This document shows positions 16,437 through 39,068 of a stretch of DNA of 64,000 nt, one piece after another; within the stretch, counting starts at the first letter, position 1; every line of letters starts with the position of its first letter. Origin of the DNA: Planctomycetota bacterium (GTDB lineage Bacteria; Planctomycetota; GCA-2746535); contig NVWA01000018.1 of assembly GCA_002746535.1 (NCBI GenBank), positions 58,203 through 122,202 on the forward strand, in the 5' to 3' direction. The position numbers and the translations under genes are program-made. Under the pieces are notes generated by a model that was not told the DNA's origin, did not search any database, and saw only the letters and a list, made by a program, of their open reading frames with translations.

Positions 16437-16578
16437 TTTCAAATAGAAATTATTTGGTTAAATTCAGTGATGAAATTTCACGTGGATTTTGACCATTATA
16501 TTGCTAAACTTTCGTCAAAATTAGTGTACAAATCTGTTCACTATTAAGCCAGTTTTGGGTAATCATCAGGAGTTTCAA

Positions 16579-19500
16579 ATGAAGTTTTTTCTAAAATTAA
16601 GCATCCTTATTCTTCTTTCATTCTCAGTAACCTTTCAACCAACATTTTCAGAAGATACCGTTGATGAAAGTAACTTAACTCGAAAAGAAAAACGAGCATT
16701 GAAAAGAAAGCTGAGAAAAGAAAAGCAAGAACGAGAAAAAAGGGAAAAGGCAGCTAGAGAAAAAGAATTATCAAAAGAAACACCGCAGCAAAAAAAAGAA
16801 AGACTAGCCTTAGAAAAAGAAGAGGGAGATCGCAAAAGAGAACATGACAACAATGAAAAGATTCGTGAACAAGCTAGAAAGAAACAAGAACTAGAACGAA
16901 TTAAACAAGAAGCTGCGATACTCAAAAATAAAGAAAAGGCTGATAAAAAAGCTGAAGAAAAAAGAAAAAAAGATGACCTTGAATCTAGAAGATTAACAGA
17001 AAAGATTAGGGCATCGGCAAAAAATGAAAAGAAAAGGTTAGCACTTGAAAAGAAACTTAAAGCAAGACAAGAAAAATTAAAGAAAGAAGAGAATGAGCGA
17101 ATGCTTGTTGAAAAAGCTGCCAAAGAAAAGGCCGATAGAGAAAAACAAGCCGTAGCTAGAAAAATTAGAAAAGAAGAAAGAGCAGAACTTGATAAATTTT
17201 TTACAAATCAAAGAGCAAGAGATTTAAAAAGAAGACAATTCAATGACAATTACCTTCAGAAATTAAATAAAATTATTGATTCTTCTCGGGATGAAACACT
17301 TAACCTAGATAAAAAAATTCAAATCGCCCAACAAAAAGCCAGAAACCCTGATACCGAAAAAAGTGCTAATAAGGCCATTGTAAAACTAACCAAACAAATT
17401 GAAGATGTTCAAGAAGCAAAAGATAGAAAGCTAACAAGATTAAAAGATAGTGAAGCTAGAAGTATTGAAAAACTAGAGAAAAAATTAGAAAAAGAAGAAA
17501 ACACCGATCTAAGAAGATTGGCCTCAAAAGGTATTAGAGATCCGCGCATTCAACGCATAGTCCACCGAAAAAGTCAACACGCAACTGGTATGATTAAACT
17601 TACCAAAATCCCATTTGTTGAATTAAACTCTAATCCTACATTTGTTGAAATTGTGGGTCTGATAACACTTAAAAAACATCAAAAGAAATCCATCACCATT
17701 ACTAGTGAAAAAAGAGAGAAAATTGATTTCTTTGACACAGTCTCAATGGGAGAAGATGGCTACAGTGTCATTCATGTTTCGGAAGGTATTACCATCGCAT
17801 CTGACCTAGATACCGAGATCGTATTCTACCCTTCCTTTCAAATAAAAGATTTTCATGTTGCTCATATTAGAGTATTAACTGGCCGAGTAAACGTGATGGT
17901 TAAAAACCCAAACAAGAAATTAAAAGTTTTACTCGAAACTTCCTCAGGCCGTTTTTTAACTAATAAAGACGACTCAAACGTTATCCTAGATTACTACAAC
18001 AAAAATGAAACTCGCTACACAGTCATAAAGGGTAAAGCATTAATTGTTGATAATTCCAACGATACTATAAAAGAATTAAAAGAAGGTAGCGAAGCAAGAG
18101 TTTCAAAATCTTCAATAGAAATCAAAGAAGCTAAACAAATCAGCAAGGATCACACAGAAAGAATATTCAGAAACCATGATAAAACCAAAGTTACATCTGA
18201 CACAAAGGGTGTCGAGGTTTTAAACCTTGAAGAGCGCCCTTTATTACAGTTAGTTTCCTACCAATATCCAGCAAGTAGCACCACTATGGCAAACTTAAAA
18301 AAGAATGAGAAATTAGAAGAAAAAATTAAGGTGGCATCAAATAGTTCACGAGGAGATTACATTCGCCTAAGAAGAAAGCTCAAAAAGAAAACGACTAGAC
18401 AAACTAAAGTTGCCAAGCGAAAAGAGAATCGTGAACAAAAGAGTGCTCTGCGTAAAATTGCACAGGAAGAAAAAAAGAAAAAAGATGCAGAAAAGAAAAA
18501 GGAAAAAGAAGAAGCAAGATTAATCGCCAAGCAAAAGAAGGAAGAAGAAGACGAGCTTAAAAGAGATAAGAAACGACAAGAGAAAACCGAAAAAATCACC
18601 ATTAAATCGAAACAAAAGAAAGCTAACACCGTAAAAGCTGAAGAGGAGAAAGCCAAAAAGAAAGCTGAAGAACAAACAGCCAAAGATTTGGAAGCTAAAA
18701 AGCTCAAAGAACAAGAAATTGAAAAAGAGAAAATGCTCGCCAATGAAAAGAAGGCGGTCAAAGAGAAGGAATCAAATCAAAAGACGCCGACCAGCAAAAA
18801 AATGGATGTAAGCAAATTATCAAATGAGTCAGCAGCTTTAATTCAAGCTATTGAAGCTCAATCAGATGCAAAAATTAAAGAGATTGACGAAAAGAATAAA
18901 AAGAAAATTGCTAAAGTTGAGAATAAGAATATAGAGAAAACCAATTCTACAAATAAAAAAATAATAGCTCTAGAAGAGAAGATTAAAAATAATTCGGGCA
19001 ATAAAGAAAAAAATCAAAAGAAAATCAACTCGCTTAAAAATGACTTAAAAAAAGACACAACAAAACAACAATTAGCATTAGCAAAACTAATTAAAAAGAT
19101 TGACGCAAGCAGAACCAAGGATGTTAAAAAAGTTAAAGAAAATGAAACGAAAGAGATCGATAAAATATTAAAATCAGCTGAGAAAGAAGATGTTAAAAGA
19201 AAAGAATTAGAAAAGAAAAAAATGTTGGCTAAGGAAAAAGCTGATAAGGAAGAGGCTGATAAAGCCATCAAGGAAAATGAGAAAAAAAGAAAACTAGAAG
19301 AAGAAAAAAAGATTCAAGTAGCCAAAGAAAAGGAAGAAAAAGAGAAACAAGAGAAAAAGAAAAAAGAAGATATTGCCACAAAAGAAGAAAAAGCTACTGC
19401 TGAGAATAAACCGAAAAATAAAGCTACTACTTCAGGCGGAGATGGCACTGATACAAGTAAACTTTCAACTGAAACAGCTGCCCTTGTTCAAGCAATTGAA

Positions 19501-20673
19501 TCAGGTACAAAAGTAAAAATTGATGAACTAGACTCCAATAACCTTAATAAGCTAGCTAGTGAAAAAGCAGATAATGATAAAGACATAAATAAGATAAAAG
19601 AAAAAATTGCTTCATTGGAAGAAAATATTAAATCTGGCAAAGGTAAAAAAGAGAAGAACCAAAAGAAAATTAATAAACTGCAAAATGATTTAACAAAAGA
19701 AACAGAAAAGCAAAATGCCACTTTAGTTAAAATGGCAAAGAAATTAGAAGCAAGTCGCATCAAAGAAATTAAAAAAATAAAAGATAAAGAAACTAAAGAA
19801 ATAAATAAAATATTAAAATCAGCACAGAAGGAAGATGCTAAAAGAAAAGAAATAGCAGATAAGAAACGAATAAAAGAAGAAAAGTCGAATAAAGAAAAAG
19901 CTGATAAGCTAGCAAAAGAAGAATCAAAGAAAAAGAAAGCTGACGAAAAAATTACTAAAGAAAACGAAGAGAAAGCTGCTAAAGAAAAAGACAAACTAAG
20001 GAAAATAGAAGAAAAGAAAAAGAAAGCTGACGAAAAAATTCAAAAAGAAAATGAAGAAAAAGCTGCTAAAGAAAAAGATAAACAAAAGAAAATAGAAGAA
20101 AAGAAAAAGAAAGCTGACGAAAAAATTCAAAAAGAAAATGAAGAAAAGGTAGCTAAAGAAAAAGAAATAGAAGAAAAATCAACCAAAGAAAAAATGGTTG
20201 CAAAAGAAAAAGAAACAATAAAAGATCAAGACAAGAAAGAAGTTGATACTGAGAAAAAAGAATCAAACATTTATGCTAATTTGTCCAGTGAGATAAAATC
20301 TTATTTTAAAGCACTAGACACAAAAGCTAGACTACAGCTAGAAGACATCAATACCAAATATGATGCTAAAATCAAAAAAGCTAAAATGAAAGAAGATAAA
20401 TCACTCGCCAAAACATTGAAAAAGCTTGATTCACTTAAAGCAGACATATCAAATGGCAAAGGAAACAAAGTGAAAAATGAAAAGAAATTAGCGCGATTAC
20501 AAAAAGAATTTGATGATGAAAAAATAAAATCAAAAGAAAAAATGGATAAGATCACATCTAAAAATAACAAACCAAGAAATGCTGAAATCAAAAAAATAAA
20601 AGATGCTACCCAAGCAGAAAAAAATGAATTTCTTGAGCAAGAAATTGAACTTAAAAAACTGAAAGAGGAATAG
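16579..20673 (+). CDS. Exported FecR-domain protein with long Lys/Glu-rich coiled coils and internal repeats
   Basis: A 1364-aa protein starting at the ATG at 16579 (AGGAG seven bases before it), not at the TTG eight codons upstream listed in the track. Residues 1-25 form a signal peptide (KFFLKLSILILLSFSVTF). A charged helical region to about residue 320 is followed by a strand-rich stretch of ~170 residues that fits a FecR-type domain (VEIVGLITLKKHQKKSITI, VSMGEDGYSVIHVSEG, LETSSGRFLTNKDDS, EGSEARVS). The remaining ~800 residues are coiled coil. Three long repeats begin with DVSKLSNESAALIQAIE, DTSKLSTETAALVQAIE and IYANLSSEIKSYFKALD, and end in KETKEI-type helices. A 29-residue unit (KKKKADEKIQKENEEKAAKEK) is repeated in tandem. 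A periplasmic or surface structural role is inferred; nothing shows a TonB-type FecR sensor function. Confidence 0.8.
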   Translation: MKFFLKLSILILLSFSVTFQPTFSEDTVDESNLTRKEKRALKRKLRKEKQEREKREKAAREKELSKETPQQKKERLALEKEEGDRKREHDNNEKIREQARKKQELERIKQEAAILKNKEKADKKAEEKRKKDDLESRRLTEKIRASAKNEKKRLALEKKLKARQEKLKKEENERMLVEKAAKEKADREKQAVARKIRKEERAELDKFFTNQRARDLKRRQFNDNYLQKLNKIIDSSRDETLNLDKKIQIAQQKARNPDTEKSANKAIVKLTKQIEDVQEAKDRKLTRLKDSEARSIEKLEKKLEKEENTDLRRLASKGIRDPRIQRIVHRKSQHATGMIKLTKIPFVELNSNPTFVEIVGLITLKKHQKKSITITSEKREKIDFFDTVSMGEDGYSVIHVSEGITIASDLDTEIVFYPSFQIKDFHVAHIRVLTGRVNVMVKNPNKKLKVLLETSSGRFLTNKDDSNVILDYYNKNETRYTVIKGKALIVDNSNDTIKELKEGSEARVSKSSIEIKEAKQISKDHTERIFRNHDKTKVTSDTKGVEVLNLEERPLLQLVSYQYPASSTTMANLKKNEKLEEKIKVASNSSRGDYIRLRRKLKKKTTRQTKVAKRKENREQKSALRKIAQEEKKKKDAEKKKEKEEARLIAKQKKEEEDELKRDKKRQEKTEKITIKSKQKKANTVKAEEEKAKKKAEEQTAKDLEAKKLKEQEIEKEKMLANEKKAVKEKESNQKTPTSKKMDVSKLSNESAALIQAIEAQSDAKIKEIDEKNKKKIAKVENKNIEKTNSTNKKIIALEEKIKNNSGNKEKNQKKINSLKNDLKKDTTKQQLALAKLIKKIDASRTKDVKKVKENETKEIDKILKSAEKEDVKRKELEKKKMLAKEKADKEEADKAIKENEKKRKLEEEKKIQVAKEKEEKEKQEKKKKEDIATKEEKATAENKPKNKATTSGGDGTDTSKLSTETAALVQAIESGTKVKIDELDSNNLNKLASEKADNDKDINKIKEKIASLEENIKSGKGKKEKNQKKINKLQNDLTKETEKQNATLVKMAKKLEASRIKEIKKIKDKETKEINKILKSAQKEDAKRKEIADKKRIKEEKSNKEKADKLAKEESKKKKADEKITKENEEKAAKEKDKLRKIEEKKKKADEKIQKENEEKAAKEKDKQKKIEEKKKKADEKIQKENEEKVAKEKEIEEKSTKEKMVAKEKETIKDQDKKEVDTEKKESNIYANLSSEIKSYFKALDTKARLQLEDINTKYDAKIKKAKMKEDKSLAKTLKKLDSLKADISNGKGNKVKNEKKLARLQKEFDDEKIKSKEKMDKITSKNNKPRNAEIKKIKDATQAEKNEFLEQEIELKKLKEE
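19927..20160 (+). repeat. 87-bp (29-codon) tandem repeat inside the coiled-coil gene
   Basis: Copies begin at 19927, 20014 and 20101 with a common core AAGAAAAAGAAAGCTGACGA. The first two are full and the third decays after about 60 bases. The unit is a multiple of three, so copy changes would keep the frame. Confidence 0.85.
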
Positions 20674-34990: not shown

Positions 34991-36415
34991 TTAATTTGGC
35001 CCTCTTGAGCCGAAGACATACGAATGAGGTTTAATTTTCCATTTCTCCATTTCATTTAATACTGGAGTCACAATATTCCAACTAGCTGTTAATTCATCAG
35101 CCCTAATAAAAAGGCTTTTTTCACCTCTCAAGACATCAAGCAATAAACGCTCATAAGCATCATGTAATTTAGCTTGAAATTCAGATTCATAATGTAAGTT
35201 TAAAGAGGCATTCTCAAACCGCATTGCAAGACCTGGATACTTGTTAACTATCTCAAAACTAATTGCTTCTTCGGGTTGAATTCGAATAACCAAAGTGTTT
35301 GGAGTCATTGCTTTTAAACTTGGATAAATAAATCCGGGAACTTGTTTAAAGTTTATTCGAATTTCTGTGGCAGCTTTATCATATGCTTTTGCACTTAACA
35401 GATGAAAAGGAACACCATCCCATCTAAAATTATTTATTTTTAACGTCGCTTTTGCATAGGTTGGAGTTATAGAATCATTGGGTACGCCAGGATCTTCAAG
35501 GTACCCAGGTACTCCTTTTTCATTATTCCGTACATATTGCCCAACCACCAACTGATCAAGACTTATGGGTTCAACACATTTAAGCAATTTCACTTTTTCG
35601 TCACGAATACTTTCTGCATCCAAATTAATTGGCGGCTCCATACCAACAAGCGACAATATTTGCATTAAATGATTTTGCATAACATCTCTTATAATTCCAT
35701 AGTTGTCAAAATATCCAGCACGTCCACTAACACCTATTTTTTCACTCCATGAAATAACAACATCATTAATATAATTTCGATTCCAAATTGGCTCAAAAAT
35801 AAGATTAGCAAATCTTAGAACCATTAAATTTTGAATCACCTCTTTACCAAGATAGTGGTCAATTCGGTATGTTTGATCCTCTCGAATAACTTTAGATAAA
35901 TTCTTGTTTAATTCTTCATAAGATTTACTATCTCGGCCAAAAGGTTTTTCTAACACGACTCTTGCCCAAAAGTCATCACAATCATTATTTAATAGGCCTG
36001 ATTCATAAAGTGAGTTTGAAGTATCTAAAAATACACTTGGAGGTATCGCCATATAAAAAAGACGACAAAAATTTTCAATTTTTAATTCTTTTAGTTTTGA
36101 GAAAACTGAATTAAACCCATCAACCGAATCATATTGACCTCGAACATAAAAACACTTTTGCAAAAATTCAGGGACTTTTTTTAAAATTTCCTGCTCATCA
36201 CTAAACTTATTTTGCAAACACTCCCCAGCCAATTCTCGGAATTGATCATCGTTCATTTCACTTCGGGCATACCCTATAACATTATAATCCCTAGGCAAAA
36301 AACCGTTTACATAAAGTGAAAAAAGGGCTGGAATAATTTTTTTCCGAGACAGATCTCCTGATGCTCCAATAATAAAAAAATTACAACCATTCTTATAATC
36401 AATTTCACCACTCAT
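34991..36415 (-). CDS. zwf: Glucose-6-phosphate 1-dehydrogenase
   Basis: Oxidises glucose-6-phosphate to 6-phosphogluconolactone with NADP (or NAD), entering the pentose-phosphate pathway. The 474-aa protein has the nucleotide-binding FFIIGASGDLSRKKIIPAL at the N-terminus, the VVLEKPFGRD segment, and the substrate motif RIDHYLGKE near residue 185. IQPEEAISFEI follows, and YERLLLDVLRGEKSLFIRADELTASW near the C-terminus. Length is normal. The ATG is preceded by GGAGAG. A TATAAT box is seen near 36447-36452 on the - strand as a likely -10. It leads a two-gene unit with the 125-aa unknown protein. Confidence 0.97.
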   Translation of the reverse strand: MSGEIDYKNGCNFFIIGASGDLSRKKIIPALFSLYVNGFLPRDYNVIGYARSEMNDDQFRELAGECLQNKFSDEQEILKKVPEFLQKCFYVRGQYDSVDGFNSVFSKLKELKIENFCRLFYMAIPPSVFLDTSNSLYESGLLNNDCDDFWARVVLEKPFGRDSKSYEELNKNLSKVIREDQTYRIDHYLGKEVIQNLMVLRFANLIFEPIWNRNYINDVVISWSEKIGVSGRAGYFDNYGIIRDVMQNHLMQILSLVGMEPPINLDAESIRDEKVKLLKCVEPISLDQLVVGQYVRNNEKGVPGYLEDPGVPNDSITPTYAKATLKINNFRWDGVPFHLLSAKAYDKAATEIRINFKQVPGFIYPSLKAMTPNTLVIRIQPEEAISFEIVNKYPGLAMRFENASLNLHYESEFQAKLHDAYERLLLDVLRGEKSLFIRADELTASWNIVTPVLNEMEKWKIKPHSYVFGSRGPN

Positions 36416-36542: not shown

Positions 36543-37505
36543 TTAATCAAGATAATCATTTTTTAAAATCCAATTCAAAAGATTAGCATCGGATTTTGCC
36601 TGATTATAATGAAATGAAAACCCTCGAAAGAATGCTTGCTGCATAGACCTAAATGGTTCCGTTCGAATTAATTTTGCACGACATTTTCCATAAAAAAGTT
36701 CCATGCCAATATTAAGTTTATTATAAAGGCCTAAATATTTTTTTTCCCTAATCAAAGAATAAGAATACGAAATCCCCTGCATATAAGATCTCTTTTTTAA
36801 ATAATCTACTGTTAACCGACTTTCATCCACCCTATGATATAAACTAGCTTCAGGAATAAAAAAAGCTTTTCCATTACTTTTTTGTATTTCATTGGAAAGG
36901 TAACTTTCACCGTCACCTCTAAATCTCAGATCTTCTGAAGGAAAGCCATCTGGATGAAATCCACCCAATGCTACAAGAGTCGCTTTTCGAATTGAAAAAT
37001 TACAACCAAACACCATATGAGGTGAAATTTCTTTTATTTCATCACCCATTTCAAGTAAACTATATTCAGATAAATATTTTCCATCTAAATTTATTTTCCA
37101 TAAAAGCTCGACCCATTCAGGTAAGTCAGCCTCAAATTTTGGATGTGCATTCCCACCAACCAAAACAACATCACTCCCTTGAGAGAAGCCCATAGCAATT
37201 CCATCTAACCATGTAGGCTCAACCAAAACATCATCATCAATAAATGAAAGAATTTCGCCCTTAGATTTTTTTAAACCACAATGTCTTGCATTGTGGAGGC
37301 CTAAATTAGCTTCTTTGTAATAAAAGCAATTTACATGATTATTAATATAATCTCTAGAAACAAGTTCCGTATCATCACTTGAATTATTATCTACTACAAT
37401 AATTTCGAAATCTTCAGAGGGATAATTCAAATCACTTAAACTATCTAGAGCATCTTTCAAAATAGTTGAACGATTATAGGTCGGAATAATTACACTAATA
37501 AACAG
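36543..37505 (-). CDS. Family 2 glycosyltransferase, probable non-standard (CTG) start
   Basis: A GT2 (GT-A fold) enzyme that transfers a sugar from an activated nucleotide donor. The track starts at TTG 37460 but would lack the first strand of the fold. Reading upstream in frame gives LFISVIIPTYNRSTI, the canonical N-terminus of the family. Then come EIIVVDNNSSDDT, ANLGLHNARHCGLKKSKGEILSFIDDDVLVEP (the DxD equivalent DDD) and SIRKATLVALGGFHPDGFPSEDLRFRGDGE. Between that sequence and an in-frame TGA at 37517 only GGA ATT CAG CTG exist. So the start is CTG at 37505, with GAGGA six bases upstream, or there is a frameshift from the ATG at 37530. Neighbouring flippase, methyltransferases and GT11 gene suggest surface polysaccharide synthesis. 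Confidence 0.85.
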   Translation of the reverse strand: MFISVIIPTYNRSTILKDALDSLSDLNYPSEDFEIIVVDNNSSDDTELVSRDYINNHVNCFYYKEANLGLHNARHCGLKKSKGEILSFIDDDVLVEPTWLDGIAMGFSQGSDVVLVGGNAHPKFEADLPEWVELLWKINLDGKYLSEYSLLEMGDEIKEISPHMVFGCNFSIRKATLVALGGFHPDGFPSEDLRFRGDGESYLSNEIQKSNGKAFFIPEASLYHRVDESRLTVDYLKKRSYMQGISYSYSLIREKKYLGLYNKLNIGMELFYGKCRAKLIRTEPFRSMQQAFFRGFSFHYNQAKSDANLLNWILKNDYLD

Positions 37506-37739
37506 CTGAATTCCTCAAATATAAACCCATTGACTCCAATTATTATAATACATTATCAAAAGATTTTCTTTACAATACTAAATTCATCAGATTTTATAAC
37601 ATAAAGCAATATAATTAACTACTAAGATTTTTTCAACATCACCATCAACTCTAAGATCGGTTTTAAATATTAGTATTATGGATATAAAGAAAAGAAATAA
37701 AGCTTTCAACTACAAAGCATTAACGCTAATTTCTATCAT

Positions 37740-39068
37740 GTGTACATTTTGATATTAAATAAAATAAAAGAAATTACTCAGCATCCCGGTGTTCGTAAAT
37801 ATTTTAAAAATAGCTCATGGCTACTAGCAGAAAAAGTATTTAGACTTATCATTGGACTGTTCGTAGGTGTATGGGTAGCAAAATACTTAGGTCCTGAGTC
37901 CTATGGCCTTTTCTCTTACGCACAGTCAATTGTTGTCATAATTACTATTGTAGCTTCTTTAGGAGTCGATGGGATACTAGTCAGAGAATTAATTAATCAT
38001 AAAGACAAAAGGGATGAACTTCTAGGCACGGCATTCACACTTCGACTGATAGGTGCAATAATTGTGATTTTAATAACAATAATTGCTATCAGCTTATTAC
38101 CTCACGAGAGAGACACAAACATAATAATAATAGTAATCACAGGAGCTGTGTTTTTTCAGTGTTTTAATGTTATTGATTTTTATTTTCAAAGCGAAGTTCT
38201 AAGCAAATATATAGTAAGAGCAAACATGATTTCCCTCTTAATATCATCGATAGCAAAAGTCATACTGATTTTATACAATGCACCCTTGCTAGCATTCGCA
38301 ACTATGATGGTTGTCGATAGTGTCATATTTGGCATAGGATATATTTACATATATTACAAACAAAATTTATCGTTATTCATATGGAAATTCAACTATGCCA
38401 TGGCAAAAAGACTATTAAAAGACAGCTGGCCATTAATTTTTAGTAGCTTTGTGCTAATGATCCAAGCGCGTATAGATCAAGTGATGATCAAAAACATGCT
38501 AGGGAATTCTGAAGTAGGTTATTACAGCGTAGCATTAAAACTGATAGAGTCCGTCGCATTCGTGACAATTATTTTAAAAACATCCCTATCACCATCTGTA
38601 ATTAAAGCAAAGAGCATCTCAACCGAATTATATGAAAACCGATTGCAAAATTTATATAGAATAAATATGATCGCATTTCTAATCGTTGCCCTTCCTATAT
38701 ACTTTTTAGCCGATCACATAATAAGTATTCTATATGGAGAAAAATATGCAAATACTGGTATTTTACTATCAATAATGGCATCCCGGCTATATTTCGCAAA
38801 CCTAGGAACAGCTCGCGCAGTTTATTTAATGGTTGAAAATTTATTCAAATACGCTTTATTCACGATGATTTTAGGAACAATCGTAAACATTATATTAAAT
38901 TACTACTGGATAGCAGAATATGGAACCAAAGGTGCTGTATATGCATCAATCATTTCATTCTTTGTCACTATATTTGTTGTCGATCTCTTCTATACGAAGA
39001 CAAGAAGAAACTTATGGTTAATGATAAAGAGCACCTTTACTTTTTATCGATTAAATGTTAAATTATAA
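37740..39068 (+). CDS. Polysaccharide flippase (Wzx/MATE-like)
   Basis: A 442-aa integral membrane protein with about twelve hydrophobic segments. Family-typical N-terminal sequence is NSSWLLAEKVFRLIIGLFVGVWVAKYLGPESYGLFSYAQSIV, as in oligosaccharide flippases that move lipid-linked repeat units across the inner membrane. The start is GTG at 37740 (an ATG overlapping it by one base is out of frame). It begins the + strand set with two methyltransferase-like genes and a GT11-like gene. The strand switch from the GT2 gene is within the same functional locus. No polymerase (Wzy) is present in the window. The polysaccharide type is unknown. Confidence 0.92.
   Translation: MYILILNKIKEITQHPGVRKYFKNSSWLLAEKVFRLIIGLFVGVWVAKYLGPESYGLFSYAQSIVVIITIVASLGVDGILVRELINHKDKRDELLGTAFTLRLIGAIIVILITIIAISLLPHERDTNIIIIVITGAVFFQCFNVIDFYFQSEVLSKYIVRANMISLLISSIAKVILILYNAPLLAFATMMVVDSVIFGIGYIYIYYKQNLSLFIWKFNYAMAKRLLKDSWPLIFSSFVLMIQARIDQVMIKNMLGNSEVGYYSVALKLIESVAFVTIILKTSLSPSVIKAKSISTELYENRLQNLYRINMIAFLIVALPIYFLADHIISILYGEKYANTGILLSIMASRLYFANLGTARAVYLMVENLFKYALFTMILGTIVNIILNYYWIAEYGTKGAVYASIISFFVTIFVVDLFYTKTRRNLWLMIKSTFTFYRLNVKL

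Follow-up and report, generated by a model that had tools for sequence, protein, structure and literature searches.

A GT2 glycosyltransferase gene of a Planctomycetota bacterium that probably starts at a weak CTG codon

Background

Where does translation begin in a bacterial gene whose conserved domain opens ahead of every canonical start codon? This question is raised by a GT2 glycosyltransferase gene on the minus strand of a 64,000-nucleotide stretch of Planctomycetota DNA, hereafter the window (assembly GCA_002746535.1, contig NVWA01000018.1, positions 58,203 to 122,202 of the forward strand). A sequence-only reading had proposed that the gene needs either a CTG start or an upstream frameshift, that either could control the level of the enzyme, and that alignment with homologues would be informative. 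CTG starts are an unusual but already known form of bacterial initiation, usually of low level. They were counted in 20 of nearly 85,000 annotated genes of model bacteria, with expression about tenfold below that of TTG (both quoted in PMC11983097), and AUG to CUG switches between close genomes in 2 of 61,358 cases (PMC5622118). This rarity itself counts against a CTG start here.

Results

An intact GT2 gene without a canonical start

The open frame runs on the minus strand over 37514..36543 (323 codons plus stop, starting GIQLFISVIIPTYNRSTILK) and is closed upstream by an in-frame TGA (37515..37517). The arrangement described in the sequence-only reading is present, with the first strand of the domain in frame, just past this TGA and upstream of the first canonical start. 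After the TGA the frame reads GGA ATT CAG CTG TTT ATT AGT GTA ATT ATT CCG, encoding GIQ-L-FISVIIPTYNR, and from TGA 37517-37515 up to the first strand FISVIIPTYNR it holds no ATG, GTG or TTG. The first canonical codon is a TTG (37458..37460, minus strand) lying inside the domain without a Shine-Dalgarno (SD) motif. A start there loses the first 15 codons counted from the CTG, and with them the first strand and the NR motif, so that a naive gene caller, starting at TTG 37460, truncates the GT2 domain. Read from the CTG, the gene occupies 36543..37505 (minus strand, 320 codons plus stop).

The encoded product is an ordinary GT2 glycosyltransferase adjoining a polysaccharide cluster. A Pfam search placed residues 7-135 on positions 1-128 of PF00535 at 97 bits, above the gathering cut-off of 23.3 (E 1.5e-27), and also found a PF13641 region; the protein carries the N-terminal nucleotide-binding strand FISVIIPTYN and the acidic motif FIDDDV. 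The gene is intact across its 323 codons and scores well as coding sequence, and homology extends to the C-terminal end, with full-length homologues elsewhere in the phylum at 35-41% identity. The best of these (41% identical) has an ATG start, and the nearest genomes returned belong to the same phylum. A close homologue among genome contigs was sought and rejected, the best match reaching only 28%. The gene resembles other PF00535 glycosyltransferases of polysaccharide clusters in its domain, its DDD motif and its neighbours (a Wzx-like flippase and a methyltransferase-like gene), and differs from them in having no canonical start codon.

The Wzx-like flippase gene (37740-39068, plus strand) is divergent from the GT2 gene, and its first start is a GTG with no detectable SD. 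A weak, possible sigma-70-like promoter, TTGAAA-17-TATATT (37608..37636, minus strand), precedes the GT2 gene; the promoter scan of this upstream region returned 1 site against 2.4 expected in shuffled sequences, which is not evidence by itself. Farther away in the window, a 1372-codon frame (16555-20673, plus strand) encodes a lysine/glutamate-rich, coiled-coil-like protein with internal sequence repeats.

Homologues and ribosome-binding signals converge on CTG 37505

Alignment of the first methionine of homologues points to the CTG at 37503..37505 (minus strand), residue 4 of the open frame, as the initiation codon. Among the NCBIfam models used for this offset, whose first position lies close to the N-terminus of the protein itself, query residue 6 corresponds to model position 3 in HpsE, AglG, PgfS and EpsE, and query residue 5 to model position 2 in HpsN and WcaE, both placing Met1 on the CTG; other models, e.g. 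PglI, are off by one residue from this placement. Protein Data Bank chains share the offset (9jma, 5 to 2; 5tze, 6 to 3; SpsA 1h7l, 6 to 3). The ATGs of relatives within the phylum fall at query residue 4 (L112, L003, L117, L124, L126 and L131), residue 5 (L111) or residue 2 (L118-L123), so that the proposed comparison with homologues puts their Met1 at or near the CTG, within query residues 2-5. In most other GT2 open frames of the genome, a canonical start codon stands a short way ahead of the same motif. Judged from these alignments, the coincidence of CTG 37505 with the homology-expected first codon is beyond chance, and comparison with relatives supports this codon as the predicted start position.

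The CTG is preceded by the SD-like motif GAGGA (37512..37516, minus strand) with a gap of 6 nt, and the 16S rRNA tail encoded in the window, ACACCTCCTTTCT, is a normal anti-SD. The well-spaced GAGGA of the sequence-only reading was thus recovered, with the refinement that it offers two 4-bp registers that overlap, either AGGA with an aligned spacing of 4 or GAGG with one of 7, and not one 5-bp match. The predicted duplex at CTG 37505 amounts to -5.6 kcal/mol, against medians of -4.9 for unambiguous ATG starts and -2.2 for internal CTGs; a duplex at least as strong is found at 43% of the former and 14% of the latter in this genome. About 60% of sampled genes have an SD of at least 4 bases, usually at aligned spacing 4-8, and the spacing and strength at CTG 37505 lie inside the normal range of the genome. 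This codon combines the first residue expected from homology with an SD at usable spacing. A mild negative comes from the 71-nt segment around it. Its fold, at -10.8 kcal/mol, is more stable than those around 90% of starts, which counts against initiation at the CTG.

A likely second case and the possibility of a one-base change

A TraB-family gene on the minus strand of contig C13 (55542-56717, equivalent to L093:15542-16717), unrelated to the GT2 gene, is likely a second CTG-start gene in this genome. Its frame begins TAG GGT ATT CAA CTG GAA..., is intact for 392 codons (TIGR00261, 354 bits) and has no ATG, GTG or TTG before its conserved N-terminus. The CTG stands at residue 4, and relatives begin with ATGs that align to query residues 3, 5 and 7; the SD is weak (AGGG, duplex -4.0). 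The TraB leader, AGGGTATTCAA, resembles that of the GT2 gene, both containing AGG-N(1-2)-ATTCARCTG, a pattern that in a looser form occurs 3 times in 2.34 Mb. With two cases only, this common leader may be a coincidence.

The two genes bear directly on the idea that the GT2 start codon is truly canonical, the CTG having arisen through a one-base error in the consensus or through a recent mutation of the start codon in the population sequenced. One base separates CTG from each of ATG, GTG and TTG, and the assembly, in 106 contigs and 88.9% complete, contains other lesions, including point changes in the assembly or the organism, which weigh against a CTG start. At least one apparent point nonsense interrupts a frame, a TAG at C34 128791 in an intradiol dioxygenase-like frame, and a secreted-type frame starting at C3 35198 is likewise without a start. 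Such lesions are nevertheless few among the 1694 genes, and the codon present in both GT2 and TraB, themselves unrelated, is CTG, which of the non-canonical neighbours is the most usable, where a mixture of dead codons might have been found. We consider a one-base change unlikely.

The frames concerned merit a description of their own. On C3, a 355-codon frame (35198-36262, plus strand; L184:15198-16262) opens with a signal-peptide-like start, NSIILKLTFLIFLFNGLWAQ, has no ATG, GTG or TTG until codon 146 and no Pfam match; it reflects either the loss of a start codon or another rare start. On C34 (about 128446-129031, minus strand), the intradiol dioxygenase-like frame is broken by its single in-frame TAG. 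On C72 (288043-288667, minus strand; L085:8044-8667), a glycogen-synthase-like sequence is apparently split over several frames, as either a pseudogene or local assembly trouble.

An upstream ATG in another frame

The ATG at 37530, which the sequence-only reading gave as an alternative with GGAG before it and MGLYLRNS as its product, is present and opens an out-of-frame ORF of 11 codons (MGLYLRNSAVY, 37495..37530, minus strand) that overlaps the CTG and closes at TAG 37497-37495. This ORF is probably incidental. Lying only 25 nt upstream of the CTG, the ATG could be joined to the GT2 frame (MGLYLRN..) by a one-base shift, either an indel error or a programmed frameshift; 5-10 extra N-terminal residues are known in some GT2 proteins, e.g. 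L005 and L032, and the glycogen-synthase-like gene of C72 is itself frameshifted. The signals at the locus argue otherwise. The GGAG leaves a gap of only 3 nt, equal to an aligned spacing of 2, which only 24 of the 566 SD-bearing genes here show; between 37530 and 37505 there is no homopolymer longer than 3, and inspection of 37530-37495 found no known slippery sequence and no stop-coupled shift site. No N-terminal extension is required by the nearest full-length homologues whose start is clear, and an indel would leave unexplained why a CTG with an SD occupies the expected Met1. CTG makes up 0.55% of codons near gene starts, and by chance one would fall inside the 4-codon expected zone in about 2% of cases for a single gene and in 0.05% for GT2 and TraB jointly. 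These odds argue against indels as the cause, but they do not tell a genuine CTG start from a canonical start altered at one base. Programmed frameshifting, which nothing supports, is unlikely at this gene, and the joining of the two frames by any one-base shift or indel appears distinctly improbable. Of the two options offered by the sequence-only reading, the CTG start is therefore the one retained, on the Met1 of homologues and the SD spacing.

CTG is not a routine start in this genome

CTG is not a routine start in the 2.34 Mb of this genome that were sampled (1694 genes). In 939 genes (1.26 Mb), 34 CTGs lay upstream of the first canonical start and 4 of them had an SD, the rate for all codons being 11%. 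A CTG with an SD-like sequence is thus no rarity in its own right, and a general habit of CTG initiation was rejected on this background level. A search of the 1694 genes for coding-like sequence upstream of the first canonical start yielded few strong cases, several of which look degenerate, frameshifted or interrupted by point stops. The coding score discriminates poorly over short extensions, and the GT2 gene ranked low by it, so that other CTG starts could be missed. When 19 ORFs that looked startless or had a weak first start were compared with Pfam, upstream homology appeared only in one glycogen-synthase-like fragment, which looks degenerate and was discarded as a further hidden startless gene. 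An apparent enrichment of SDs before GTC (13/28) concerns mostly codons at most 5 codons upstream of a canonical start, whose SD they may merely share.

Relaxed initiation through a variant initiator tRNA was also rejected, the anticodon stems (GGGTTCATAACCC at C21:71286-71359 and GGGCTCATAACCC at C47:8894) being canonical with the usual three G-C pairs kept. The missing general enrichment of CTG and the lack of any relaxed-initiation mechanism apparent from the initiator tRNA both count against the CTG start. That the lineage reserves CTG starts for a few genes, deliberately kept as a class of low or regulated expression, perhaps with the AGG-N(1-2)-ATTCARCTG context of GT2 and TraB, seems very unlikely.

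The C47 initiator-type tRNA with GGGCTCATAACCC belongs to one of two dense tRNA arrays of about 20 genes each (C72 170372-172723 and C47 6699-11093). Such arrays are often located on mobile or phage-like elements.

Discussion

For the GT2 gene, the absence of a canonical start, the position at which a start is expected and an SD are all observed, and on balance we think it likely that translation starts at CTG 37505, as a weak but real start. Polysaccharide clusters are subject to rapid turnover, the canonical start is lost and a degenerate gene is present elsewhere in the genome, but an incipient pseudogene translating no working enzyme is highly unlikely for a frame that has no further lesion in 323 codons, keeps its homology to the C-terminal end, scores well as coding sequence and has a well-placed SD.

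Under initiation at CTG 37505, GAGGA six bases upstream would position the ribosome on this codon, the normal initiator fMet-tRNA would read it, and the protein would begin fMet-FISVIIPTYNR. As CTG is a weak start, a low expression of the GT2 enzyme would be expected; we infer both the initiation site and this low level. The control of enzyme level envisaged by the sequence-only reading is a fair inference to the extent that published CTG initiation is weak; regulation through the CTG start is supported by no result and is unproven.

The closest parallel is the rep gene of FIB (RepFIB) plasmids, in which a good ribosome-binding site likewise accompanies a CTG start. Annotations mostly place the rep start at a GTG 14 codons farther on (PMC11983097), much as a gene caller would place that of GT2 at a TTG 15 codons downstream. 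The rep start was found by N-terminal analysis and confirmed by mutating CTG to CTC, and the low level of rep is important for the control of replication (PMC11983097), whereas the GT2 start is predicted from sequence. Streptomyces sigR also presents a non-canonical start on a chromosomal gene; its codon, GTC, differs from the CTG of GT2, and its regulation, through repression of the GTC start by IF3, is demonstrated (PMC5472188).

Common gene callers take only ATG, GTG and TTG, so that CTG-start genes are silently truncated, here with loss of the first strand of the active domain. If correct, our reading would add one more CTG start, likely accompanied by another in this genome, and would favour the view of rare starts as under-annotated. 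Its biological effect would be modest, namely the weak expression of one sugar transferase, and the GT2 case, ordinary as it is, merits a correction of its annotation.
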